A DNA stretch of 25,539 bases, taken from the IMG/VR virus record IMGVR_UViG_3300008050_000280, positions 1 to 25,539 of that record, one strand, 5' to 3'. How positions within the stretch are numbered: position 1 is the stretch's first letter; every line of letters begins with the position of its first letter. Source of the stretch: a virus. The translations under genes and the position numbers were made by a program. This document shows, piece by piece, positions 4,383 to 24,777 of the stretch. The notes beneath the pieces were generated by a model. It saw only the letters and a list, made by a program, of their open reading frames with translations. It was not told the DNA's origin and ran no database searches.

Positions 4383-7300
4383 ATGGCAGTTGATAAATTT
4401 AAGTTTGTGTCACCGGGTATTTTCATTGATGAGATTGATGAATCAGCCCTTCAACCACTACCCGATAGAATGGGCCCAGTCGTTATAGGGCGATTCCAGA
4501 AAGGGCCGTCGAATCGTCCAGTAAAAGTTGATTCTTACAAAGAATTCGTACAGGTTTTCGGTGCCCCAGCTCCTGGCACCGCAAAAGGCGATATTTGGCG
4601 TACGGGCGATCAAACCGCCCCTACCTACGCTGCATATGCTGCGCAGGCATGGTTAAAAAATAACTCTCCATGCACCGTTATTCGACTCTTGGGCAAACAT
4701 CCCAGTGATGCTGCAGACACTCAGCTTGGTCGGGCCGGTTGGATAACAGACAACACACCGAATACTGACATTGCCCAGGCCGGCGGCGCATACGGCTTGT
4801 TTGTCATGCCTAACCCAGATGAATATACCGGTGGCTCGGAGCAAGCTGTTTACACAGACGCTATAGACTTTGCAAGTTACGGTACCAGTGACGATTTTAC
4901 GATTAATGTGCCCGCGGCCGCAGGCGGCACTGGCACCACAATGACCATACGACTTACCGGCGCCGACGCCACAGGCGCGGCATCGACGAGCGCAACAGTT
5001 ATCGCCATGGGCGTTAGCAGTACTCCGCCTCCCAGCGCAGGCACCGTTGCGGAGACTATAGTAGATGCAATAAATGGCTTCTTTGGTTCAGGCGGGGCAT
5101 ACAATCACAGCTTTGCATCAGCGAACACCGGGGTCAACACTGGCGTGGCCGGCGTGACTGCTACATTGAGCGGCACAACTAAAATTACTCTAACCGCAGA
5201 TATCGCGGGCCAGGCTGGCAATAACATACAAGTTACTGACGGTACTGGGAGCCCGGCTACTACCGGTAAACTCGCCGGCGGCGGCGGCCCAGCCGTCACA
5301 GGCTCGCTAGCAGCTGTCTGGTATGTACAAGATGGAGCAGTTATTCTAACAGGCACTGCAAGAGACGGCAAGCAACGCGAAGGAGCTGCTGTGCTGATTA
5401 AGGCCGGCACTGGCCAGACTTTCACAGCCAAAGTTGTGCGAAACGGAGCTGATTCTTCAGACTGGACAGTTGACAAGACAGCGACGTTTGACTTCGTATC
5501 GACTTCAGAAAAATATATCAGAAAGGTCTTCAACACTGATCCAACCTTGACAAACGACGCACTATACTCCAGTCCTGATTTAAAATACCACTGGCTTGGG
5601 GAAACGTTTGAGACCCACGCTAGAAGCGAAATGTATGTTACTGGTACTGCAGTTTCTGCCGAGACAAACAAATTTTACGGTGTTATTCTAGGATTAAACG
5701 GTACCGGTGGCAGCACCGGCGCCGGCTTTGACTGGCATGATAGAAAGCGAACCAACGCAGCTGCCAACACTGGCTGGTTTATCTCACAAGATATTAGAGG
5801 AGAGGTCACGGCCGATGCAGCCAACGGCTTCGACCCCACCAACGCAGCTCACGCTGCCAGGTTATTCAGATTTCATGCATTAGATAGTGGAGAGAGCGGC
5901 AACAGAGATCTTAAGATATCGATCGAAGATGTCAAGGTGCCCACTGACAACTTCAACACTTACGGAAGCTTTACTGTCCTTGTTCGCCGCGGCACCGATA
6001 ACGACAACAAATTAGAGGTTTTGGAGCGCTATAGCGGCGTGAATCTAGATCCTACGTCAACGAACTTTATCCGCAAGGCGGTAGGAGATCGTCAGTACAG
6101 TTTTGATGCTAGCACAAATGTTTTAACAGAGATAGGACAATATGCTAACAGATCTAAATATGTCCGTGTTGAAACATCTCCTGGCGTCGACGCCGGCGCT
6201 GGAGAGGGTCTGCATCCATTCGGCGTTTTCGGACCGGTCGTGCCGAAAACATTCCAACTATTGAGTGGCTCGGTAGCTGATGCCTTGAGCGATGATAGCG
6301 GCGCAGCAGTTAAAGACTACGTTATTGGTAGCGGTAGCACATTCCCTTCTGGCGCTTTTGCCGTGGGTCAGACTGTTAGCATGCCCACAGCCCAACTGGT
6401 TTGGCACGGCCCGATGGCCGCAGATAACCAATTTACTGCATCCTTGCGGTTCCCAACCCCAAGAGCACGCATATCTTCGTCTGAGGGCGGCCTAGTAAAA
6501 GCTAATAAAGCTTACTTTGGGTATCAATCTAATTTGGTTGGCGCTAAAAAATATGATTACAGTAACCTGGACATGCTACGGGGCCGCCCCCTCGCTTTCA
6601 ACAACGGTGATGCGTCAGGCATAATTTCTAGCCCTGACGAATATCAGTACTCATGGGTGTTTACGCTAGATGATGTTAAACAAGCGACGGATGATACCAG
6701 TCATGCGGTCTGGGTAAGCGGCTCTAGGGCAGACGGTTCTTCCTGGACTGCGCAGTCGGGCTCAAACTATGTCGTTAAAGATCTAGGGTTCAACCGCTTC
6801 ACTGCGCCAATGGCAGGAGGGTTTGACGGATTCGATGTTACAGAAAAAGATCCGCTTCGTAATTCTAGACTGCTCAATGGCACAGAGCTATCAAATTCTG
6901 GGTTCTACACTATCAAAAAAGCAATTGACATGATAGCGGATAGGGAGTTCCTTGAATTTGATGTTGCAGCAGTCCCGGGCGTAACAAATACTGGTTTGAC
7001 AACAGCCCTGGTTAATGCATGTGAAGACCGCGGAGACGCTTTAGCAATTATTGACTTAAAGCACGACTACACGCCCCCTCACGACACGAACGTCACAGAT
7101 AACGCTGAGTCTAGTCGACTTGGAAGCGTGTCCTCGGCGGTTAATGCCTTAAAAGATATGAATGTCAATTCAAGTTATGGTTGCGCCTTTTACCCTTATG
7201 TTCAGATTAAGGATACCGGATCCGATTCAATCTTGTACGTTCCCCCCTCTGTCGTCGCGCTGGGCACGTTTTCAAGTTCTCAAAAGAAATCGGCCGTCTG

Positions 7301-7817
7301 GTTTGCTCCGGCCGGATTCACGCGTGGAGGCCTTAGTGAGGGCTCTGCTGGAATTCCCGTCCTCGGAGTACGCAAGCGTTTAACAGCTAGTGACAGAGAC
7401 GAATTGTACGATGCTAACATTAACCCAATTGCGTCTTTCCCAGCTGAAGGTGTCGTAATCTTTGGCCAGAAAACCCTGCAGGTAACTCAGTCAGCGTTAG
7501 ACAGGATTAACGTGCGCCGCCTGCTGATTTATCTTAAGAAGGAGATTTCTAGAATTGCCTCTACAATTTTGTTCGAGCAAAATGTACAGGCAACATGGGA
7601 TAGCTTTACTAGCCGCGTTAACCCGCTCTTGGAGGATGTTAGGGCAGCTCAGGGATTGATGGATTTTAAAGTTGTTTTAGACAACACAACAACAACAGAT
7701 GAACTAATCGATAGAAATGTTATGTATGCTAAAATCTATCTCAAGCCAGCCCGGGCGATTGAATTCATCGCCCTAGACTTTATTATTACTAGGTCTGGCG
7801 CCTCATTTGATGATTAA
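4383..7817 (+). CDS. Contractile tail sheath protein (gp18-like), 1144 aa with inserted domain
   Basis: The N-terminus (FVSPGIFIDEIDESALQPLP, then GPVVIGRFQKGP and a FVQVFG segment) and the C-terminus from about residue 973 (VWFAPAGFTRGGL ... DELYDANINPI ... RINVRRLLIYLKKEI ... ARAIEFIALDFIITR) are typical of T4-type tail sheath proteins. These polymerise around the tube and contract at infection. T4 gp18 has about 660 residues, so this protein is nearly twice as long. Part of the excess is a Gly/Ala/Thr-rich module at about residues 158-308 (bases 4854-5306), placed between GAYGLFV and LAAVWYVQ. That segment has visibly higher G+C. The ATG at 4383 has a good AAGGAG. Confidence 0.93.
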   Translation: MAVDKFKFVSPGIFIDEIDESALQPLPDRMGPVVIGRFQKGPSNRPVKVDSYKEFVQVFGAPAPGTAKGDIWRTGDQTAPTYAAYAAQAWLKNNSPCTVIRLLGKHPSDAADTQLGRAGWITDNTPNTDIAQAGGAYGLFVMPNPDEYTGGSEQAVYTDAIDFASYGTSDDFTINVPAAAGGTGTTMTIRLTGADATGAASTSATVIAMGVSSTPPPSAGTVAETIVDAINGFFGSGGAYNHSFASANTGVNTGVAGVTATLSGTTKITLTADIAGQAGNNIQVTDGTGSPATTGKLAGGGGPAVTGSLAAVWYVQDGAVILTGTARDGKQREGAAVLIKAGTGQTFTAKVVRNGADSSDWTVDKTATFDFVSTSEKYIRKVFNTDPTLTNDALYSSPDLKYHWLGETFETHARSEMYVTGTAVSAETNKFYGVILGLNGTGGSTGAGFDWHDRKRTNAAANTGWFISQDIRGEVTADAANGFDPTNAAHAARLFRFHALDSGESGNRDLKISIEDVKVPTDNFNTYGSFTVLVRRGTDNDNKLEVLERYSGVNLDPTSTNFIRKAVGDRQYSFDASTNVLTEIGQYANRSKYVRVETSPGVDAGAGEGLHPFGVFGPVVPKTFQLLSGSVADALSDDSGAAVKDYVIGSGSTFPSGAFAVGQTVSMPTAQLVWHGPMAADNQFTASLRFPTPRARISSSEGGLVKANKAYFGYQSNLVGAKKYDYSNLDMLRGRPLAFNNGDASGIISSPDEYQYSWVFTLDDVKQATDDTSHAVWVSGSRADGSSWTAQSGSNYVVKDLGFNRFTAPMAGGFDGFDVTEKDPLRNSRLLNGTELSNSGFYTIKKAIDMIADREFLEFDVAAVPGVTNTGLTTALVNACEDRGDALAIIDLKHDYTPPHDTNVTDNAESSRLGSVSSAVNALKDMNVNSSYGCAFYPYVQIKDTGSDSILYVPPSVVALGTFSSSQKKSAVWFAPAGFTRGGLSEGSAGIPVLGVRKRLTASDRDELYDANINPIASFPAEGVVIFGQKTLQVTQSALDRINVRRLLIYLKKEISRIASTILFEQNVQATWDSFTSRVNPLLEDVRAAQGLMDFKVVLDNTTTTDELIDRNVMYAKIYLKPARAIEFIALDFIITRSGASFDD
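4854..5306 (+). other. Inserted Gly/Ala/Thr-rich domain within the sheath
   Basis: Residues about 158-308 of the sheath form a beta-rich, low-complexity-like module with the order DFTINVPAAAGG, then AETIVDAING, then GVTATLSGTTKITLTADIAG and GQAGNNIQVTDGTG. Similar 'aINg ... g.tA ... ItLT.d..G.aGN' modules turn up inside various structural proteins of marine phages, as far as I recall. The module is absent from T4 gp18. It probably projects from the outer sheath surface. Confidence 0.55.
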
Positions 7818-15869: not shown

Positions 15870-17201
15870 ATGCCAGCACGCCCAGTAGAAGCGATGTTTA
15901 ACACTAGAAATAATATGAATAAGCTCATGGAGGGTCAGTTTAATCCGACCACAAAACATTTTGATCTCCATAGGAAACAATTGCTATATGGAAGAATCGA
16001 TCGCGCCGGCGATGCTGTCTTGATTAACGGGCCCTTGGAGCAGATACACACTGGCCGCGGCATTACAGAGTTCGCGGTTGATTTTGTCTGTGAAGCTTTC
16101 AAGGATTTGCAGGCCTTTTACCAACGTCATATTGTCTCGAAACAGGCTGACGCCACCAGTCTTTTCGGGCCGACATTGAGGGTTGCCAAGGCTTGGCGAA
16201 GTGGGGATCCCCTCTATGAATATAACGCATATATGTCCAAAATTTACACGACGTTTGTCCAAGATTACCTTAATATTAACCGCCGACACGAGAAGATAAA
16301 GAATTTTCATGACTTTACGAAAGAGTTTTTTAATTTTATGCTTGACAACGCGTATTATTTTCCTATAACAAAGACTGGCTTCGTTTTATCATATCACTGC
16401 TCTCCGTTCGCTAGCGGTTTAATGATAGAGGTTGCAAAACAAAAACATGGCACCCACAACAATGCGGCTGTGTTTAAATATGCGACCGACCCAAATTATG
16501 AGTCCGGTTTGATCATTGAGATGGCAAAAAAATTTGGCTTTATGATGGATATTAACGCACCATGGCGGATGGTTTTTAACATAGCTTCCGGCTACGCATC
16601 CATGGCCGCCTCCGGCGCCAATACCGGCGGCCGCAAATATATGGAAGACTTCGGCGTCAGCTTCGAAAATATATTTGATTATTATTATGAAAAAACACAT
16701 CTACAAGAGATAGAAAATTTGCAAAAAATCATGTATAACAGCTACGAGTCTTTCTATAAGCAATTTAGTACGTACGAAACTCTTAGATATCATGGCACGC
16801 CCGGGGAAGACTGTTCGTCATTGACAATTGTCAACGAAAGGAGTGACCGCGAGCCACCGCCGCCTAGCCTAGGCCCATTGGCAGAGACGGATGAATATTT
16901 TTTAAAAATGGTCTTGGTGTTACGGTTGGCTGAAACAGAACGCAGCATGAGCACGAAAAATATATCACCCCAAATAAAAAAAATTATTTATCATTATCGT
17001 AATTATGGCAAAAACGCCGCTCTGGATTATATTAATGAATTGACTAAGGGCCTAAGTGTTACTAAGTTTAATAGAAGAGGCAAGTATTGGTATGGCGTAA
17101 CTCTACGAGAGCATGAAAGCAGAAAAGCAATTGCCAAAGAAAAGGCCGCCGATCCTAGCATCGCGAACTATGTTTTAACAGGCACCAAAAATAAGCCGTA
17201 G
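15870..17201 (+). CDS. Unrecognised probable virion protein, 443 aa
   Basis: ATG at 15870 is three bases after the previous stop, with GGAGG inside the end of the upstream gene, so the two are likely co-translated. The protein is rich in Tyr, Phe and Asn, with many helical aromatic stretches (YMSKIYTTFVQDYLNIN, FTKEFFNFMLDNAYYFP) and a Pro-rich break PPPPSLGP near residue 332. The C-terminus is basic. No catalytic motif, signal peptide or membrane segment was seen. It is the last gene before the replication block and follows the baseplate genes, so a structural role is more likely, but this is not shown by the sequence. Confidence 0.65.
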   Translation: MPARPVEAMFNTRNNMNKLMEGQFNPTTKHFDLHRKQLLYGRIDRAGDAVLINGPLEQIHTGRGITEFAVDFVCEAFKDLQAFYQRHIVSKQADATSLFGPTLRVAKAWRSGDPLYEYNAYMSKIYTTFVQDYLNINRRHEKIKNFHDFTKEFFNFMLDNAYYFPITKTGFVLSYHCSPFASGLMIEVAKQKHGTHNNAAVFKYATDPNYESGLIIEMAKKFGFMMDINAPWRMVFNIASGYASMAASGANTGGRKYMEDFGVSFENIFDYYYEKTHLQEIENLQKIMYNSYESFYKQFSTYETLRYHGTPGEDCSSLTIVNERSDREPPPPSLGPLAETDEYFLKMVLVLRLAETERSMSTKNISPQIKKIIYHYRNYGKNAALDYINELTKGLSVTKFNRRGKYWYGVTLREHESRKAIAKEKAADPSIANYVLTGTKNKP

Positions 17202-17212
17202 CGAGAGGTTTT

Positions 17213-18391
17213 TTGTTATTTCAAACACTGGACAATAAAAAAGAGTGTTATGCTATATACTGCGATAAGGACTTTTATTATTATCCTAATAAACTGGACT
17301 TGACGCATACGTGGTCGTATACTCCTCATTTTGAGAATAAAAAAATTGAATATGCTAATATTTGGTGCACCGGCGCGAACCTAGACAGCGCATGCCCAGA
17401 ACATCTTAAAGAAGACTGGTCTAGAATAAATAAAAAGGCAAGAGCTTATCTTACTTCTTTTGATGAGGCTAGGATAAATCTAGACGATATTTGTTTTTAC
17501 GACGCTGTGCCTAGAAAATTTTTAGTTGAGTATTGTGATTATAAAAACCAGATTACCGACTGGGTCTTCCACCATTACAAAAAACCAAAAAATTATGATT
17601 TTTTAAATGAGCTGGTAATTTTCTTACACAAGCTAGGGCGCCAAGAAATGAATTTGCAAACCACAAACCTGGATTTTATTAATCCAAAAGTAAGAAAAAG
17701 CTTTGATAAAATTAAGAATTCAAGTAATCGCATTATATACGACCCATGGGTGACCGCAACTGGCCGGCTCACAACAACGCAAAACAGTTTCCCTATCCTA
17801 ACCCTGAACAAGGAGCTGCGCCACGTTCTAGCTCCCTGCAACAACTTATTCATGGAGCTGGACTACAATTCGGCCGAGCTGCGAACCTTTTTTGGCCTTT
17901 CGGGCCAAGATCAGCCGGCCGAGGATATACATGCTTGGATTAACAGTACCATATTCAACAACAAATATACGCGGGAAGAGTGCAAAAAGAAGGTGTTTGC
18001 ATGGTTGTACAACCCCAAAGCTAAAAATGCAAAATTAAATAAATATTTAGATCGCGATTCGCTGCTCAATAAACTCTATATTGACGGCCATGTGGAAACC
18101 CCATATCAAAGAAGGTTGAACGTATGCCACAGCAAAGCGCTGAACTATCTAATCCAGAGCACAACAAGTGATTTATTTTTAACATCTGTCCTGAAGGTTG
18201 ATAAAATGTTGAAAAACAGAAAATCTTTTATCAGTTTCTGTATACATGACAGCTTGGTAATAGATTTTCACAAAAGTGATCGGTCTTTGGTAAACGAAAT
18301 ATTGAAAATTTTTTCGGCTACAAAATTTGGAGATTTCAAGATCAATTTGAGCATTGGCAATAACTTCGGAAATATGAAAAAAGTACTATGA
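17213..18391 (+). CDS. Compact family A DNA polymerase, 392 aa
   Basis: The best start is TTG at 17213 after AGAGG; no suitable ATG lies near. The TGRL signature is at 183-186. Motif A is LDYNSAELR (catalytic D217, E222). Motif B fits RxxxKxxxFxxxY (R254, K258, F262, Y266), with Asn in place of the usual Gly after the Tyr. Motif C is IHDS (H345, D346), with Ser replacing the common Glu. F262 corresponds to Phe762 of E. coli Pol I. Exactly 46 residues follow the motif C Asp, as in Pol I. The 180 residues before TGRL are enough for a thumb but show no 3'-5' exonuclease motifs. Classic T4-like phages use a family B polymerase here. Confidence 0.88.
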   Translation: MLFQTLDNKKECYAIYCDKDFYYYPNKLDLTHTWSYTPHFENKKIEYANIWCTGANLDSACPEHLKEDWSRINKKARAYLTSFDEARINLDDICFYDAVPRKFLVEYCDYKNQITDWVFHHYKKPKNYDFLNELVIFLHKLGRQEMNLQTTNLDFINPKVRKSFDKIKNSSNRIIYDPWVTATGRLTTTQNSFPILTLNKELRHVLAPCNNLFMELDYNSAELRTFFGLSGQDQPAEDIHAWINSTIFNNKYTREECKKKVFAWLYNPKAKNAKLNKYLDRDSLLNKLYIDGHVETPYQRRLNVCHSKALNYLIQSTTSDLFLTSVLKVDKMLKNRKSFISFCIHDSLVIDFHKSDRSLVNEILKIFSATKFGDFKINLSIGNNFGNMKKVL

Positions 18392-19221
18392 ACATAATTG
18401 GTTTGGGAAATGCTGGCAGTGAAATAGCAAAGAATTTCGAAATTTATAGCCAGTATCGGGTATTTTGCATCGATACCGAAAATAACGGGTATCCCACCTT
18501 TATAAAGATTGAATATCAAAATTCTCATGAATCCTACGAAAAAAACTACAAAGAATTGAATTTGCCTGGCATCGCCGGCCCCACGACTCTTATCCTGAGC
18601 GGCGCCGGTAATATAAGCGGCGCCGCACTGCGGCTGCTAGAGCAACTTAAGGCATGCCCTATAACCGTTATTTACGTAAAATCGGATCCTGGCCAGCTGG
18701 CCAGTGAGGCTAGGACAAGAGAGAAAATTACTTTTGGAATTTTACAACAATACGCTAGATCCGCTTTGCTTGAGACCTTATATATTGTCTCTAACAAGGA
18801 AATTGAAGAGGTTGTTGATAATCTAACCCTAAAGAACTATTGGCAAGACATAAATAATGTTATTTCTAGCACTTATCATATGTTAAACGTGTATGAAAAC
18901 ACAGAGCCACTTTTAAATACATCTCCGCCTCGTGGAGAATCATCTAGAATTGGCACGTTCGGTGTCGTCGGATATGAAACAAAAGAGGAAAAACTATTCT
19001 ACAAATTACAATATCCCAGAGTAAAGAAATACATTTATGGCATAAACGACGATCTGACGAATAACGATAAAAATCTTCTCCACGGAATACGAAGCTTCGC
19101 AGCTAGCCAAAAAGAAGAAAAAAATGAAGTAGGCTTTTCGATATACACGACGAGTTACGAGTACAACCATATATATGCGATTTATTATGCTTCTTGTATA
19201 CAAGAACAAATATTAGAATAA
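18388..19221 (+). CDS. Tubulin/FtsZ-like protein coupled to the polymerase, 277 aa
   Basis: The ATG overlaps the polymerase stop in ATGA, so translation is probably coupled. The N-terminus MNIIGLGNAGSEIAKNF with a following CIDT matches the first glycine loop of FtsZ-type GTPases. Residues 67-80 (TLILSGAGNISGAA) sit where FtsZ has GGGTGTG. Residues 91-136 (PITVIYVKSD ... EARTREKITFGILQ ... LYIVSN) follow the FtsZ order 'ltVaiVt.P...E...R...A..gi..L...livi.N'. The family T7 loop (NxDFADV) is not visible, and 277 aa is shorter than FtsZ. A plain Rossmann nucleotide-binding protein is the alternative. The function in this phage is unknown. Confidence 0.5.
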   Translation: MNIIGLGNAGSEIAKNFEIYSQYRVFCIDTENNGYPTFIKIEYQNSHESYEKNYKELNLPGIAGPTTLILSGAGNISGAALRLLEQLKACPITVIYVKSDPGQLASEARTREKITFGILQQYARSALLETLYIVSNKEIEEVVDNLTLKNYWQDINNVISSTYHMLNVYENTEPLLNTSPPRGESSRIGTFGVVGYETKEEKLFYKLQYPRVKKYIYGINDDLTNNDKNLLHGIRSFAASQKEEKNEVGFSIYTTSYEYNHIYAIYYASCIQEQILE

Positions 19222-19324: not shown

Positions 19325-20068
19325 ATGGCTTTAGATTTAGAGAAAATGAAGGCAAAGCGCGATGCCTTGGAAAACCGCGGAAATGGAAAGAGCGTCTTTT
19401 GGCGCCCTGAAGACGGAGAACAAACAATCCGTATTGTTCCGACCCCTGACGGAGATCCATTTAGGGAATACTGGTTTCACTATAACCTAGGAAAGAACCC
19501 GGGCTTCCTGAGCCCAAAGAAGAACTTCGGCGAAGACGATCCGTTGAACGATTTTATCCGCCAGCTGTATAAGGATGGATCTGACGAATCTATTAAGATG
19601 GCCAAGAACCTTTCGGCGCGCCAACGATTCTTCACGCCTGTCCTCGTACGTGGCGAGGAGGACCAAGGTGTGCGACTATGGGGCTTTGGCAAGACAGCAT
19701 ACAGAGAATTGCTTAATTTGGTTCTCAACCCCGAATATGGCGATATCACCGATACTGATGAGGGTACCGATCTTACGCTTAACTATGGTAAGCCCCCCGG
19801 TGCGCAGTTCCCTCAAACTACGATCACGCCCCGTCGAAAGTCGTCGCCTCTATCTGCCTCAGAAGAGCAAATTGGCCAATTGCTGGATCAAATTCCTGAT
19901 TTTGGAAGTGTTTTCGATCGAAAGACGCCGCAGCAAGTTCAGGCTATGCTAGACGAGTTCCTCCTGGGGGAGGATGACGCCGAAGAAGTATCTTCAGAGT
20001 CGACTAAATATAGTGGATCTGGCAAGAGCACGGTTGACAAGGCCTTCGAAGAGCTTTTGGCCTCTTAG
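19325..20068 (+). CDS. Single-stranded DNA-binding protein (gp32-like), 247 aa
   Basis: ATG follows AAGGAG. The N-terminus MALDLEKMKAKRDALENRGN is followed by FWRPEDGEQTIRIVPTPDGDPFREYWFHY, the typical entry to the OB-fold of T4 gp32-type proteins in marine phages. Residues 57-82 (KNPGFLSPKKNFGEDDPLND ...) align with the zinc-loop region of gp32, but the whole protein has no cysteine, so a zinc ion bound as in T4 is not possible. The C-terminus is acidic (LLGEDDAEEVSSES) and ends DKAFEELLAS, fitting the tail that contacts replication partners. T4 gp32 has 301 aa. UvsX follows two genes later. Confidence 0.85.
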   Translation: MALDLEKMKAKRDALENRGNGKSVFWRPEDGEQTIRIVPTPDGDPFREYWFHYNLGKNPGFLSPKKNFGEDDPLNDFIRQLYKDGSDESIKMAKNLSARQRFFTPVLVRGEEDQGVRLWGFGKTAYRELLNLVLNPEYGDITDTDEGTDLTLNYGKPPGAQFPQTTITPRRKSSPLSASEEQIGQLLDQIPDFGSVFDRKTPQQVQAMLDEFLLGEDDAEEVSSESTKYSGSGKSTVDKAFEELLAS

Positions 20069-20074
20069 TCCTCT

Positions 20075-20113
20075 ACCGCAGGGAGGCCTGGGTTTACAGA
20101 GGTCTCAATTTTT
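20075..20113 (+). repeat. Hairpin-forming 39-base repeat, copy A (after the gp32-like gene)
   Basis: This copy begins six bases after the gp32-like stop codon. Its first 28 bases are identical to 20323-20350; the full 39 bases differ at two sites. It can fold GAGGCCT (20083-20089) with AGGTCTC (20100-20106), the one difference in the stem being kept as a G-U pair, and ends in a short T run. It is probably a weak terminator or RNA-level control element. Confidence 0.75.
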
Positions 20114-20133
20114 CACACACACAGGAGTTTATT

Positions 20134-20316
20134 ATGAGTGAAAATAACAGAAGTGGATATGAAATCCGCGAAGGTTTACTTGGCTTGGCCAAGGATATTT
20201 GTGAGCAAAATGCGCATATGCGCTTTGAGCAAACAAAGCAGTGGAGCGAGGTGACGACGGAAGAAGTCATTCGTGAAGCTGAAAAGCTTTATCAATTTGT
20301 ACAGACGAAGTCCTGA
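20134..20316 (+). CDS. Small conserved-type protein of T4-like marine phages, 60 aa
   Basis: ATG follows CACAGGAG. The product is a soluble helical peptide that contains NRSGYEIREGLLGLAKDI and ends VTTEEVIREAEKLYQFVQTK. Small proteins with 'SGYEIR..LLglA' at the start and a C-terminal helix occur next to gp32 and UvsX genes in T4-like marine phages as I recall, but I know of no assigned function. It lies between the single-strand binding protein and UvsX and is flanked by the two repeat copies, so a link to recombination or replication is suggested by context only. Confidence 0.75.
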   Translation: MSENNRSGYEIREGLLGLAKDICEQNAHMRFEQTKQWSEVTTEEVIREAEKLYQFVQTKS

Positions 20317-20322
20317 TTGATA

Positions 20323-20361
20323 ACCGCAGGGAGGCCTGGGTTTACAGAGGCCTCAACTTTT
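20323..20361 (+). repeat. Hairpin-forming 39-base repeat, copy B (after the 60-aa gene)
   Basis: This copy begins six bases after the 60-aa gene stop, the same spacing as copy A. It folds GAGGCCT (20331-20337) with AGGCCTC (20348-20354) as a perfect 7-bp stem with a 10-base loop and is followed by CTTTT. It ends 18 bases before the uvsX ATG, so it might also affect uvsX translation. Confidence 0.75.
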
Positions 20362-20378
20362 AAAAAACGAGGATTATA

Positions 20379-21491
20379 ATGGCAAAGAAGGCAAAAAAGC
20401 TAGGTCGCCTAAGTATCGGAGAGATGAGGAATCTCATCAATAAGAAAGCCGGCGTCGAGGTAGCTTTCGATCTGACAAAAGAGAATCCCACGCAGGTCAA
20501 AGACTGGATCCCCACCGGATCTCGATGGCTAGACAGCGTTATCTGTCGTGGCAAGCTAGCCGGTATCCCAATGGGCAAAATTGTAGAAATCGCCGGCCTC
20601 GAAGGCTCCGGTAAATCATACATGGCGGCCCAGATCGCCGCTAACGCTCAGAAGATGGGCGTCGACGTTGTATATTTTGACGCCGAATCGGCAATTGATC
20701 CGGATTTTCTGTCTTCCGCGGGATGCGACGTCGACAACCTTCTTTATTTACAGCCTCCTAGCGTCGAATACGTCTTGGAAACTATAGAGGAACTGTTAGG
20801 CTCGAACGACAACAAAATGTTATTTATTTGGGACTCTCTCGCACTCACGCCTTCTGTCAGCGATGTGCAGGGAGACTTTAACCCACAATCGTCAATGGCG
20901 GTTAAGCCTAGAATTTTAGCTAAGGGCATGTCTAAATTAACTGTGCCAATCGCCGCCTCAAAGTCGACTTTCTTGGTACTGAACCAATTGAAAACCAACA
21001 TTACCAATAATGTAGCCGAAGCAATGACCACGCCCTATGTAACTCCCGGCGGCAAAGCAATGCACTATGCATATTCTTTACGAATCTGGCTGACAAAGAG
21101 AAAGGCAAAGGCTTCTTTCATTATCGATGAAAACGGTTTTCGAGTCGGATCAGAGGTGAAGGCAACACTTAAGAAAAGCAGGTTTGGCACAGAAGGACGC
21201 CAATGCACGTTTAAGATTCTTTGGGGCGCCAACGTCGGTATTAAGGATGAAGAGAGCTGGTTTGAAGCCATTAAGGGCTCCGACAGCTTAAAACAGGCCG
21301 GCGCATGGTACAGCCTAGTATACAAAAACGGCAAGGAAGAGAAATTCCAAGCTGCCAAGTGGTTAGACAAATTAAAGAACCAAAAATTTAAAGATCGGGT
21401 GCTTGAAATAATGGATGAAGACATCATCATGCGCTTTGAAAAGAAGGAAGGGAAGGCGAAAGATTTTTACGATATCGATCAAGAGTCCTAA
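20379..21491 (+). CDS. uvsX: UvsX/RecA-type recombinase, 370 aa
   Basis: ATG follows CGAGGA. Walker A is GLEGSGKS (73-80) and Walker B lies in MLFIWDS (147-153). Residues 93-107 (MGVDVVYFDAESAID) carry the RecA-type 'fiD.E.a.d' segment, and a loop with QLKTNITNNV and TPYVTPGGKAMHYAYSLRIW fits the L1/L2 DNA-binding region. The length is close to T4 UvsX (391 aa). The enzyme would form filaments on gp32-coated single strands and drive strand exchange for recombination-dependent replication and repair. It sits in a block with the gp32-like, helicase and exonuclease genes. Confidence 0.93.
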   Translation: MAKKAKKLGRLSIGEMRNLINKKAGVEVAFDLTKENPTQVKDWIPTGSRWLDSVICRGKLAGIPMGKIVEIAGLEGSGKSYMAAQIAANAQKMGVDVVYFDAESAIDPDFLSSAGCDVDNLLYLQPPSVEYVLETIEELLGSNDNKMLFIWDSLALTPSVSDVQGDFNPQSSMAVKPRILAKGMSKLTVPIAASKSTFLVLNQLKTNITNNVAEAMTTPYVTPGGKAMHYAYSLRIWLTKRKAKASFIIDENGFRVGSEVKATLKKSRFGTEGRQCTFKILWGANVGIKDEESWFEAIKGSDSLKQAGAWYSLVYKNGKEEKFQAAKWLDKLKNQKFKDRVLEIMDEDIIMRFEKKEGKAKDFYDIDQES

Positions 21492-21536
21492 TGTTACTCT
21501 TTATGTTCCTCATTGTGGTGTTTATATTAATATCAT

Positions 21537-21977
21537 ATGAAAACGAGATTTAAAAATCACACTTCACAAGTCGGCTTTCAAGTCGAGGAATCTAAAAAAG
21601 TCAAAAGATACTTTGGATTGGCCAAGAATGTTGCTTTCGGTAGCGATTACGGCAAGATCCGCCACGGCGCCCTCTTAGTGAAGGGCGGCTCGGTAATCAA
21701 TACTTGTTGCAACAAAGACAAGTTTTGCTCTTTTGGTACACGTTTCCGCGACCCCGCTCGTGGCCACGCAACAATACACGCAGAATTAGGCTGTATACTA
21801 GGCGTCGACCGAGCCACAACATCGGGAGCAGACATATACGTCTGCCGTGTTAACAGGAGAGGTGAATTTCGTAACAGCAAGCCATGCGCTATGTGCCATG
21901 ACGTGCTCAAATATGTTGGCATCAAAAGGGTTTATTACACTACCAGCGAAGGTACTGTTGAAATGTACAAATTATAA
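21537..21977 (+). CDS. Cytidine / deoxycytidylate deaminase-type protein, 146 aa
   Basis: The zinc motif is complete: HAE at 81-83 (H81 ligand, E83 catalytic) and PCAMC at 116-120 (C117, C120 ligands), followed by LKYVGIKRVYYTT, the usual strand after this motif. This identifies a member of the cytidine/dCMP deaminase superfamily. In a phage with its own ribonucleotide reductase the most likely role is supplying dUMP for dTTP, but the substrate cannot be read directly; a nucleic-acid editing role is not excluded. The ATG at 21537 has no clear Shine-Dalgarno, which is unusual in this window. Several extra cysteines (57, 58, 64, 85, 103) are present. Confidence 0.82.
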   Translation: MKTRFKNHTSQVGFQVEESKKVKRYFGLAKNVAFGSDYGKIRHGALLVKGGSVINTCCNKDKFCSFGTRFRDPARGHATIHAELGCILGVDRATTSGADIYVCRVNRRGEFRNSKPCAMCHDVLKYVGIKRVYYTTSEGTVEMYKL

Positions 21978-22004: not shown

Positions 22005-22382
22005 ATGAAAGACAGTATTAAGAAATTAGTGAGAGAGTACCTTTACGAGCAGCTCTACGAAGCGGAGTGTATTCTGAGATCAGATTCAACCAAGAATTTC
22101 ACAAAAGTTACTGATAATTTACGAGGCGTGTGTGGCATAACCGTTGTTACAATCGCCGGCCCAGCTGAAGCAGTTAGAGGTAGCACTGGCGTTGAAAAAT
22201 CAAAATTAAAAGTAAAATTTTTTCAGACAGAAGCTAGCATGAAGAAGCAGCTAGCTAGAATGCAACTCGATGCAAAAAAAATTGATGGGATATACTCGTT
22301 TATACCTGTTAGATGGAATAAAGTAATTAGTAGAATTTATAGACCAGATGGCCCTACGCCACGCATGGTCGCGGAAGAATGA
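22005..22382 (+). CDS. Unrecognised small protein, 125 aa
   Basis: ATG follows CGGAGG at normal distance. The N-terminus MKDSIKKLVREYLYEQLYEA is an amphipathic helix. Then come two strand-like parts (GVCGITVVTIAGPAEAV and KLKVKFFQTEASMKKQL) and a basic end with IYSFIPVRWNKVISRIYRPDG. The alternation of strands and helices could fit a small alpha/beta sandwich, but I recognise no family. It has its own ACTATTTA motif, unlike its replication neighbours, which suggests expression with the late virion genes and so perhaps a packaged or structural role. It ends seven bases before the exonuclease start. Confidence 0.65.
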   Translation: MKDSIKKLVREYLYEQLYEAECILRSDSTKNFTKVTDNLRGVCGITVVTIAGPAEAVRGSTGVEKSKLKVKFFQTEASMKKQLARMQLDAKKIDGIYSFIPVRWNKVISRIYRPDGPTPRMVAEE

Positions 22383-22389
22383 GGTAAGG

Positions 22390-23364
22390 ATGCATGAAAA
22401 TAAGAGAATAGTAATTATTGATCAACTAAATCTTTTTTTTCGTAACTACATTGTCAATCCTAGTTTATCGGTTAATGGTAACCCTATTGGGGCGCTAAAG
22501 GGATGTTTCCAAAGCATTCAAAAAATCGTAAGAGAATCTAAACCAGATATGATTGTGGTTTGTTGGGATGGGGAGGGAGGTTCGAAGAAAAGAAAGCTTT
22601 TAAAGAAAGATTACAAGGCCGGCCGCAAGCCAATCAGGCTAAATCGAGACATCCGTAATATGTCGGAACAGCAGGAAGTCGAAAACAAGATATGGCAGCA
22701 GACGCGGCTAATAGACTACTTCAACCAAACGCCGATTGTTCAGTTTATGTTTCCAGGCACCGAGGCAGATGACATTATCGCATATCTGACACAATTAAAA
22801 GAACTATCAAGCTGTCAAAAGCTGATAGTATCGAGCGATAAGGATTTCTACCAACTGTTGGATATGGAGACAGTGTTATATAGGCCGGTGCAGAAACAAA
22901 TCTTGAACCAGAAAGCCATCGTCGATCAGTTTGATATCCATCCAACAAATTTTGCTCTTGCCCGGGCTATGGTTGGTGACAAATCAGATAACATCGATGG
23001 TTTAGACGGGGTGGGGCTGAAAACAGTTTCGAAACGTTTTCCATTCCTTAGGAGTCATGAATCGGCAACACTTGAAAATTTATACGATTATTGCACCGAG
23101 ATGTTATCTGAGTCCAAAGCGAAAGTGTATGAAAAGGTTCTTGAAAATAGAAGTCTGGTCGCAAGAAACTATCAATTGATGCAGCTATACTCACCAATTT
23201 TAAATATAGGCGCCAAAAAGACAATTCGTGAAACCATGAGAAACCCAGATTTCTGTTTTAACAAGACCGGTCTAATAAAAATGATGATGCAGGACGGTTT
23301 TGGTGAAATCAATTTTCTAGAACTTTTTCAGCATTTCAATAAAATCTCCGTAGACAATCAATAG
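22390..23364 (+). CDS. 5'-3' exonuclease / RNase H of the FEN family, 324 aa
   Basis: An upstream ATG at 22348 overlaps the previous gene by 35 bases. The ATG at 22390, after GAGGTAAGG, is preferred. Conserved acidic metal ligands of the FEN family are visible: IIDQLN (D11), VCWDGE (D60), TEADDII (E125, D127, D128) and SSDKDF (D150, D152). The helix-hairpin region is GDKSDNIDGLDGVGLKTV (196-213). This is the T4 RNase H / Pol I N-terminal type enzyme that removes RNA primers and flaps. The family A polymerase upstream lacks this domain, so the two activities are on separate proteins here. Confidence 0.92.
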   Translation: MHENKRIVIIDQLNLFFRNYIVNPSLSVNGNPIGALKGCFQSIQKIVRESKPDMIVVCWDGEGGSKKRKLLKKDYKAGRKPIRLNRDIRNMSEQQEVENKIWQQTRLIDYFNQTPIVQFMFPGTEADDIIAYLTQLKELSSCQKLIVSSDKDFYQLLDMETVLYRPVQKQILNQKAIVDQFDIHPTNFALARAMVGDKSDNIDGLDGVGLKTVSKRFPFLRSHESATLENLYDYCTEMLSESKAKVYEKVLENRSLVARNYQLMQLYSPILNIGAKKTIRETMRNPDFCFNKTGLIKMMMQDGFGEINFLELFQHFNKISVDNQ

Positions 23365-23397
23365 ATCGTAACTAAAATATTATTATTGGAGAATAAT

Positions 23398-24777
23398 ATG
23401 ACTAAAGAGATAGACTTCTCAAGATATGGGAAGCAATTTCAGGAATCTCTTGCACAGATGATCCTGGAGGACAGGCCATTCGCAGACCAAATCGAGGAGG
23501 TCATAGATACGCGATTCTTCGAATTGAATTATCTTCGCGTGTTTGTATCAAAAATCTATGAATATCGCAGAAAATATAATGTGCACCCTACAAAGAAGAT
23601 CCTAGCATCCATATTAAGGACCAACTTAGAAAACTTTAATGATGGGGTACAAAAACAAGTAAGAGATTACTTTGCGCGCATTTGTATTAAAGATGTAGAA
23701 GATGGCCAGTATATCAGGGACACGAGTCTAGACTTCTGTAAAAAGCAAAAGCTTAAAGAAGCACTGATGAGAACAGTAGATCTCGTTCAGAGTTCATCTT
23801 ACGACGAGGTACGCAAGGTTATCGACGACGCCTTAAAATTAGGCACTGATAATAACTTTGGTCATGACTTTCTTAAAGATTTTGAATTAAGATATGAAGT
23901 AAAAGCTCGTGATCCGATATCGACCGGCTGGGAAAAGATTGATGCGCTCACAAAAAAAGGCCTAGGCATCGGCGAACTTGGTGTGGTGATCGCTCCTACC
24001 GGCGCCGGCAAGTCCATGGTCTTGGCTCACTTAGGGGCCCATGCCATCAAGGCAGGCAGAAATGTTGTACATTATACACTAGAGCTGTCCGAGTCTGTCA
24101 CCGGCCAAAGATATGACAGCTGTATTAGTAAAATACCGTTGAACTCTCTTTTCCATCAAAAATCGGAGGTGCTAGAGGCAATTAGTGATTTGGGGGGGTC
24201 TCTGATCATCAAGGAGTATCCGACTAAAACTGCATCGACTAACACAATACGAACTCACCTGGAAAAACTAAAAAAAAGAAATCACAAAGTTGACATGATT
24301 CTAGTAGATTACGCGGATCTGCTCAAGTCGGTAACAAATTTTAAAGAGAAACGTAATGAATTAGAATCTATTTATGAAAACTTGCGAGCAATTGCTCAGG
24401 AGTATAAATGCCCTATTTGGACTGCATCTCAGACAAATAGGACAGGCTTAAACGCAGAAGTTGTAACTATGGAATCTATTTCGGAAGCCTTCAATAAATG
24501 TTTTGTTGCTGATTTTATTTGCTCTGTTTCTAGGACGATTAGGGATAAAAATGCCAACACGGGACGTCTCTTCATAGCTAAAAATAGGAATGGTCCAGAC
24601 GGGCTAGTATTTCCTATTTTTATGGATACCAGTAACGTAACGATTAAGGTGTTAGCTAAAGTAGATACCCCTGTTGTATCGCCGGCGATGAAGCCCGGCG
24701 ACCTGGCCGACGCGTTAAAAGTGAAATATAAGGAATTTAGAAAAGCAAAAATGCAAATGCCGGAGGGGGGATTATAG
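23398..24777 (+). CDS. Replicative DNA helicase (gp41 / DnaB-like), 459 aa
   Basis: A TTG at 23386 would lie on top of the Shine-Dalgarno. The ATG at 23398, six bases after GGAG, is the start. Residues 1-150 form the helical N-terminal domain of T4 gp41-type helicases. Walker A is APTGAGKS (199-206) and Walker B is MILVDYADLL (300-309). The later segment WTASQTNR carries the sensor Gln of RecA-fold helicases, and FIAKNRNGPDG is the usual arginine-bearing motif. T4 gp41 has 475 aa. It would move 5'-3' on the lagging strand and work with a primase not seen in this window. The reductase gene starts immediately after the stop. Confidence 0.92.
   Translation: MTKEIDFSRYGKQFQESLAQMILEDRPFADQIEEVIDTRFFELNYLRVFVSKIYEYRRKYNVHPTKKILASILRTNLENFNDGVQKQVRDYFARICIKDVEDGQYIRDTSLDFCKKQKLKEALMRTVDLVQSSSYDEVRKVIDDALKLGTDNNFGHDFLKDFELRYEVKARDPISTGWEKIDALTKKGLGIGELGVVIAPTGAGKSMVLAHLGAHAIKAGRNVVHYTLELSESVTGQRYDSCISKIPLNSLFHQKSEVLEAISDLGGSLIIKEYPTKTASTNTIRTHLEKLKKRNHKVDMILVDYADLLKSVTNFKEKRNELESIYENLRAIAQEYKCPIWTASQTNRTGLNAEVVTMESISEAFNKCFVADFICSVSRTIRDKNANTGRLFIAKNRNGPDGLVFPIFMDTSNVTIKVLAKVDTPVVSPAMKPGDLADALKVKYKEFRKAKMQMPEGGL

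Follow-up and report, generated by a model that had tools for sequence, protein, structure and literature searches.

A divergent FtsZ/tubulin-fold protein predicted directly behind the DNA polymerase gene of uncultivated, mostly marine bacterial viruses

What does the open reading frame directly behind the DNA polymerase gene of this virus encode, and is its product linked to replication? In the stretch of 25,539 nucleotides analysed here (the window), the ATG of this frame (18388-18390) overlaps the TGA (18389-18391) of the polymerase frame (17213-18391), as the initial annotation had observed. The translation of ORF 18388-19221 carries the segments GLGNAG, SGAGNISGA, TREKITFGILQ and LYIVSN in the order from which that annotation had deduced a tubulin/FtsZ-like protein. 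We call the product TubL. The + strand is used throughout, in the order tail module, polA, TubL, SSB, UvsX, dCMP deaminase, FEN-like exonuclease, DnaB-like helicase and ribonucleotide reductase, and the features that bear on the question are:

17213..18391, + strand: polA, stand-alone family-A DNA polymerase, 392 aa, TTG start, polymerase domain only (PF00476, DNA_pol_A, E 1.7e-15; phrog_17, E 1.5e-14)
18388..18391, + strand: ATGA overlap of the TubL start codon and the polA stop codon (read in the sequence)
18388..19221, + strand: TubL, predicted divergent tubulin/FtsZ-fold protein, 277 aa (AlphaFold2 pLDDT 89.2, pTM 0.89; Foldseek to FtsZ, E 1.4e-12)
19325..20068, + strand: gp32-like single-strand DNA-binding protein (SSB), the next gene past TubL (phrog_1192, E 6.8e-25)
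20379..21491, + strand: UvsX/RecA-like recombinase (phrog_97, E 9.1e-55)
22348..23364, + strand: 5'-3' exonuclease, FEN-like (PF02739, E 1.9e-27)
23386..24777, + strand: DnaB/gp41-like replicative helicase (phrog_19, E 5.6e-76)

The motifs LDYNSAELR, KKKVFAWLYN and CIHDS can be read in the polA sequence. The DNA_pol_A_exo1 domain had no match in 11 large related contigs; the polymerase of the window consists of the polymerase domain only, and proofreading may be absent or provided by an unrecognised gene. A search with the sliding clamp family PF02916 gave no hit, a result that, for want of a positive control, we do not count as evidence. Directly 5' of polA, in nearly all loci, lies a 443-aa ORF (15870-17201 in the window), for which no Pfam, PHROG or cultured-phage match was obtained. 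Further downstream, a 46-nt direct repeat (ACCGCAGGGAGGCCTGGGTTTACAGAGG...), with copies at 20075-20120 and 20323-20368 that are 89% identical, occupies both intergenic gaps, one past the SSB gene and the other past a 60-aa ORF at 20134, and folds into a modest hairpin.

Scanning viral contigs with the window protein returned 26 loci with TubL relatives, and a profile scan of viral contigs returned more than 596 loci or stretches. In five close pairs, dN was 0.006-0.07 against a dS of 0.05-0.77 (dN/dS of about 0.05-0.13), and TubL is under purifying selection. The survey of the gene pair that had been proposed at the outset was carried out on 80 loci chosen by the polymerase profile alone (A2; the best 80 of more than 580), and it revealed a conserved arrangement, with TubL downstream of polA in all 80. 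Because of the number of relatives, the low dN/dS and the presence of TubL in every polymerase-selected locus, the ORF is a real gene and not a chance reading frame. The TubL start overlaps the polA stop in 55 of the 80 loci, by 1-16 bases, and 33 of these have an exact 4-base overlap of the ATGA/GTGA type. One small gene, nearly always MazG-like, separates the two genes in 13 loci, and larger inserts are found in eight. A gp32-like SSB gene follows TubL in most of the polymerase-selected loci that have enough flanking sequence. When 80 loci were selected by SSB instead, TubL was present in 74, and four of the six exceptions end just upstream of the SSB gene; the other two (L428 and L460) have room for TubL and do not carry it. 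As the SSB-selected loci were likewise the best 80 of more than 580, the exact frequency among distant relatives lies outside both samples. In the 11 large contigs (103-184 kb) there is one TubL each, and no second tubulin-like gene was detected in them.

The MazG-like gene, of about 100 aa (YNKLVRDRIPEII...), stands between polA and TubL in 12 loci (L047, L249, L257, L260, L267, L269, L270, L272, L281, L283, L287 and L290); by resemblance, it is probably a nucleotide pyrophosphohydrolase. In L248, L258 and L271 the insert is an ORF of about 643 aa with a lipobox-like start (AIASCGD / SILAITSCGD).

Since support from sequence comparison is weak, the fold assignment of TubL rests on structure prediction, which was repeated once, for a second member. 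The AlphaFold2 model of the window protein, built from a 17-member alignment, had a pLDDT of 89.2 and a pTM of 0.89; that of member L069, from another genome and 37% identical, reached 94.4 and 0.92. Foldseek against the PDB gave 504 matches at E <= 0.001 for the window model, the best 50 of which were all FtsZ or TubZ (TM normalised to the query 0.62-0.71, best E 1.4e-12). Among the 50 PDB matches listed for the L069 model there were only FtsZ, TubZ and one CetZ, the best being the TubZ structure 4ei7 (E 2.3e-11). Over the matches listed for both models, the query TM to FtsZ-family structures was 0.62-0.74. In the viral library the best match to the window model was an uncultured Caudovirales protein annotated as FtsZ (TM 0.74). 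Both models show the topology of the superfamily, with a nucleotide-binding domain, a core helix H7 and a C-terminal domain. Thus the structure prediction and fold search that had been suggested as a check favour the proposed tubulin/FtsZ-like fold, which on these models we regard as nearly certain.

The sensitive profile search, suggested alongside, gave no such support. PF00091 did not match the window protein, and its gathering score was not reached by any member of the family; weak matches occurred in 7 of 75 members (best E 0.019). The phiKZ PhuZ likewise falls under the PF00091 cut-off (31.8 against 33 bits). The NCBIfam family matching most members was TIGR00065 (ftsZ), with 10 of 75 and a best E of 9e-4. 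An hmmsearch of the PDB with the 75-row TubL profile found no tubulin. The hhalign comparison with an FtsZ alignment (Prob 0.6%, E 0.09) did not exceed the null families, of which UvsX scored Prob 1.2%; even at this null-level score, the register still places T4, T6 and H7 correctly. Direct sequence homology to FtsZ, TubZ or PhuZ was consequently rejected on the hmmsearch of the PDB and the null-level hhalign scores. That TubL could be an ordinary Rossmann dehydrogenase-like enzyme is suggested by weak TrkA_N matches in 30 of the 75 members (best 2.3e-4) and by matches to Sacchrp_dh_NADP. However, no dehydrogenase is among the 50 fold matches listed for either model, the modelled protein appears to possess H7 and a tubulin-type C-terminal domain, and the positions expected to contact guanine are conserved; the fold searches of the two models rule this identity out, and we assign it hardly any probability.

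Residue conservation was counted over the 75 members, with numbering according to the window protein. The segments corresponding to the active site of the superfamily are:

18400..18423, + strand: T1-like loop GLGNAGSE, residues 5-12 (G5 and G7 in 75/75, G10 in 73/75)
18601..18621, + strand: T4-like loop GAGNISG, residues 72-78 (G72 in 71/75, G74 in 70/75, S/T77 in 73/75)
18742..18762, + strand: family-diagnostic LQQYARS, residues 119-125, end of helix H6 (L119, Q120, Y122, R124 and S125 in 75/75)
18793..18795, + strand: N136 in the T6-like VSN segment, presumed guanine contact (74/75)
18838..18897, + strand: helix H7, residues 151-170, with aromatic 152 and N156 as presumed guanine stack and contact (DSSP on the model)
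18898..18948, + strand: T7/H8-equivalent segment, residues 171-187, no NxDxxD and no helix (both models; conservation)

The T1-like loop has the family consensus GLGxAGCN. The T4-like loop reads GxGx(I/V)(S/T)G in the family instead of the tubulin signature GGGTG(T/S)G, so the alteration of this loop that had been noticed in the window protein extends to the 75 members. In H7, the aromatic residue at 152 is kept in 72 members, and N156 and H164 in all 75. N136, aromatic 152 and N156 are the presumed equivalents of the residues that contact guanine in tubulin (N206, Y224 and N228) and in FtsZ, as set by alignment register, not by coordinates. The T7 loop, which the initial annotation could not see, is indeed missing, both in the conservation over 75 members and in the two models. 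In polymerising members of the superfamily, its NxDxxD sets off GTP hydrolysis in the adjoining subunit. No NxDxxD occurs in residues 165-192, where the best conserved acid, at 173, reaches 64%; helix H8 is absent from the modelled T7/H8-equivalent segment of both members, and the 17 residues leading from H7 to the next strand are mostly coil. The sequence INVFxNT (166-172) resembles the FtsZ NVDFAD loop minus its aspartates and is possibly a degenerate T7 remnant, although both models keep it mostly within H7. Both E. coli FtsZ (NVDFAD) and phiKZ PhuZ (LDLMD) retain the motif. In the models, the C-terminus extends no more than about 10 residues past the last strand, and the linker and conserved C-terminal peptide of FtsZ were not found. 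The most conserved motif of the family is LQxYxRS (119-125). Judging from the topology, this motif should share with H164 and N167, at the H7 end, the face that points away from the nucleotide and through which the subunits of known filaments touch.

TubL is carried by a large group of uncultivated, mostly marine bacterial viruses with genomes of 147-184 kb. By tail sheath, the nearest cultured records are Microcystis phage Mel-JY01 and Flavobacterium phage immuto, and this similarity points to T4-like myoviruses, which we would place near the Far-T4 phages. For Far-T4 phages, Flavobacteriales have been suggested as hosts (PMC13037479). The sheath protein of the window (4383-7817) is unusually large, at 1144 aa, and its cultured matches run mainly from about residue 503 to the end. 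With three members as tblastn queries, no TubL was found in cultured phages among 50,697 phage records, and a profile search of Mel-JY01, immuto, RM378 and phiKZ found none; a marginal match in Listeria phage LIS04 contained six stops and was discarded as noise. Among 84,980 prokaryote species genomes, one per species, no cellular homologue was detected by conserved peptide and tblastn, a search that reaches only relatives keeping a TFGILQQYA-type peptide. Tubulin is not mentioned in the Far-T4 papers PMC4360716 and PMC13037479, and we found no report of a TubL-like gene in the literature. The sister freshwater clade around Mel-JY01 has polA, SSB, UvsX, FEN and helicase in the same order; in 80 of its loci TubL was not found, and the genes in the polA-SSB slot differ and do not match it. 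TubL is thus specific to its own clade, in which it is fixed.

In the Mel-JY01-like clade, the position of TubL directly behind polA is held by a conserved gene of about 138 aa (L326 6235-6649 and relatives), with 75 family members in the 80 loci. In the Mel-JY01 record itself (L109) the slot contains a SAM-lyase-domain gene, the FEN-like exonuclease is labelled DNA polymerase I and the true short polA hypothetical (positions 20398-21624, 22406-23692 and 25793-26833 of the record).

How might such a protein act? We propose that TubL is a minimal, highly divergent FtsZ/tubulin-fold protein that would be made together with the polymerase. Both the fold and the conservation of the pocket speak for binding of a guanine nucleotide, most likely between T1, T4, T6 and H7. 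Subunits would self-associate head to tail, the conserved far face (end of H6, end of H7 and start of S7) meeting the nucleotide face of the next one, and the assembly could serve as a scaffold on which the replisome (short PolA, gp32-like SSB, UvsX and helicase) is gathered or positioned. Without the T7 catalytic loop, such assemblies would either be stable or respond to nucleotide binding, not to canonical hydrolysis, and in general its loss speaks against GTPase dynamics of the canonical kind. Given the coupling to polA and the constant order polA-TubL-SSB, a link to the replisome is likely, whereas GTP binding, self-association and the scaffold role are what we infer. Taken as a whole, a GTP-binding, self-associating replisome scaffold that works without canonical T7-driven hydrolysis is a reading on which we are evenly divided. 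It is favoured by the presumed guanine-contact positions, kept in 72-75 of the 75 members, and by a precedent: phage copy number drops two-fold when the phage actin AlpC is lost, and deleting phuZ has the same effect (PMC4446434). Against it, the T4 signature and the T7 loop of polymerising members are altered or lost in TubL, and the sister freshwater clade has a related polymerase and replicates with no TubL; moreover, the gene neighbourhood speaks for likely co-expression rather than for contact. The more specific version, in which the marine T4-like clade uses a T7-less FtsZ-type TubL that polymerises on GTP binding as an obligate scaffold holding polymerase and SSB in a replication factory, is possible but doubtful.

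The main rival is a PolA accessory that does not polymerise, in which a GTP/GDP-sensing tubulin fold would act on processivity or regulation as a monomer or 1:1 complex. The strict pairing with polA, the bare polymerase domain with no exonuclease domain match in the large contigs and the loss of T7/H8 would all fit, and we keep it as a tentative alternative. Nevertheless, conservation is highest where H6 and H7 end, on the filament-contact face, as self-assembly predicts, and this surface could equally bind PolA. A dynamic GTPase filament for moving or centring the phage DNA, in the manner of PhuZ or TubZ, would agree with the fold, the phage origin and the TubZ structures among the best matches listed, but a protein that has neither NxDxxD nor H8, is shorter than FtsZ, TubZ and PhuZ and is encoded by genomes of a size unlike that of PhuZ-type jumbo phages is improbable in this role. 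Phages often target FtsZ, and a T7-less FtsZ-fold protein could cap or poison host filaments and block host division; its fixed position in the replication operon, not among accessory takeover genes, and its essentially universal presence in the clade make such a decoy quite unlikely.

Most of what is known of phage tubulins comes from jumbo phages that form a nucleus and from TubZ partition elements. TubL adds a tubulin-fold family that is invisible at the sequence level and is found at every polymerase locus sampled in a large marine clade. As it always stands directly behind the polymerase, it suggests that these viruses use a skeleton-type protein within, or as a scaffold for, their DNA-copying machinery. 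If TubL is a replisome component, it would be, to our knowledge, the first member of the tubulin superfamily built into a DNA replication machine, and the functions of the superfamily, which moves DNA and divides cells, would come to include the organisation of replication. It also offers a concrete test of whether the tubulin fold can work without the T7 catalytic loop.

Compared with FtsZ, the bacterial and archaeal cell-division GTPase, TubL shares the overall predicted fold, with nucleotide domain, H7 and C-terminal domain, and retains the T6 Asn and the H7 aromatic residue and Asn; however, it is only 9-15% identical, lacks GGGTGTG, the T7 NxDxxD, H8 and the C-terminal tail, and is a 277-aa product of a phage replication operon. 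TubZ, the Bacillus plasmid and phage partition tubulin, provided the best PDB match (4ei7) among those listed for the second model. It is about 100 residues longer, has a C-terminal tail and works with TubR and a centromere. In type III partition the TubR adaptor and the tubC centromere adjoin TubZ, whereas TubL adjoins polA and SSB. PhuZ of phiKZ and 201phi2-1 is also a phage tubulin-fold protein with a short N-terminal resemblance (GGAGFRIGELF..YIDT against GNAGSEIAKNF..CIDT in TubL), but in its 280 kb genome the phuZ gene lies away from that of the polymerase. The catalytic Asp of T7 is retained in PhuZ, which also has an acidic knuckle/C-terminal tail (PMC3678025), whereas T7 is missing from TubL. 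The TubL profile had no phiKZ match, and hhalign against PhuZ gave an E of 0.085 over 29 columns. With no detectable sequence homology beyond the fold, a smaller size, no T7 and genomes of 147-184 kb, TubL is not a PhuZ. The FtsZl1 family also has a diverged FtsZ fold, in which the filament elements T6-H7 are unrecognisable (Makarova and Koonin 2010, PMC2875224); FtsZl1 is cellular, with a coiled-coil C-terminus and membrane-remodelling neighbours, whereas in TubL T6/H7 are kept, T7 is lost and the link is to DNA replication. AlpC, the actin-like protein of prophage CGP3, supports phage DNA replication (PMC4446434) and, as a phage-encoded cytoskeletal-fold protein, is a functional analogue; it has an actin fold and a DNA adaptor, AlpA, and is not homologous to TubL. 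Since TubL departs from FtsZ, TubZ and PhuZ in the features that define them (the T4 signature, the T7 loop and the family-specific tails or partners), the most fitting description is that of a new, highly divergent family within the FtsZ/tubulin superfamily, found in a genetic setting that is also new.
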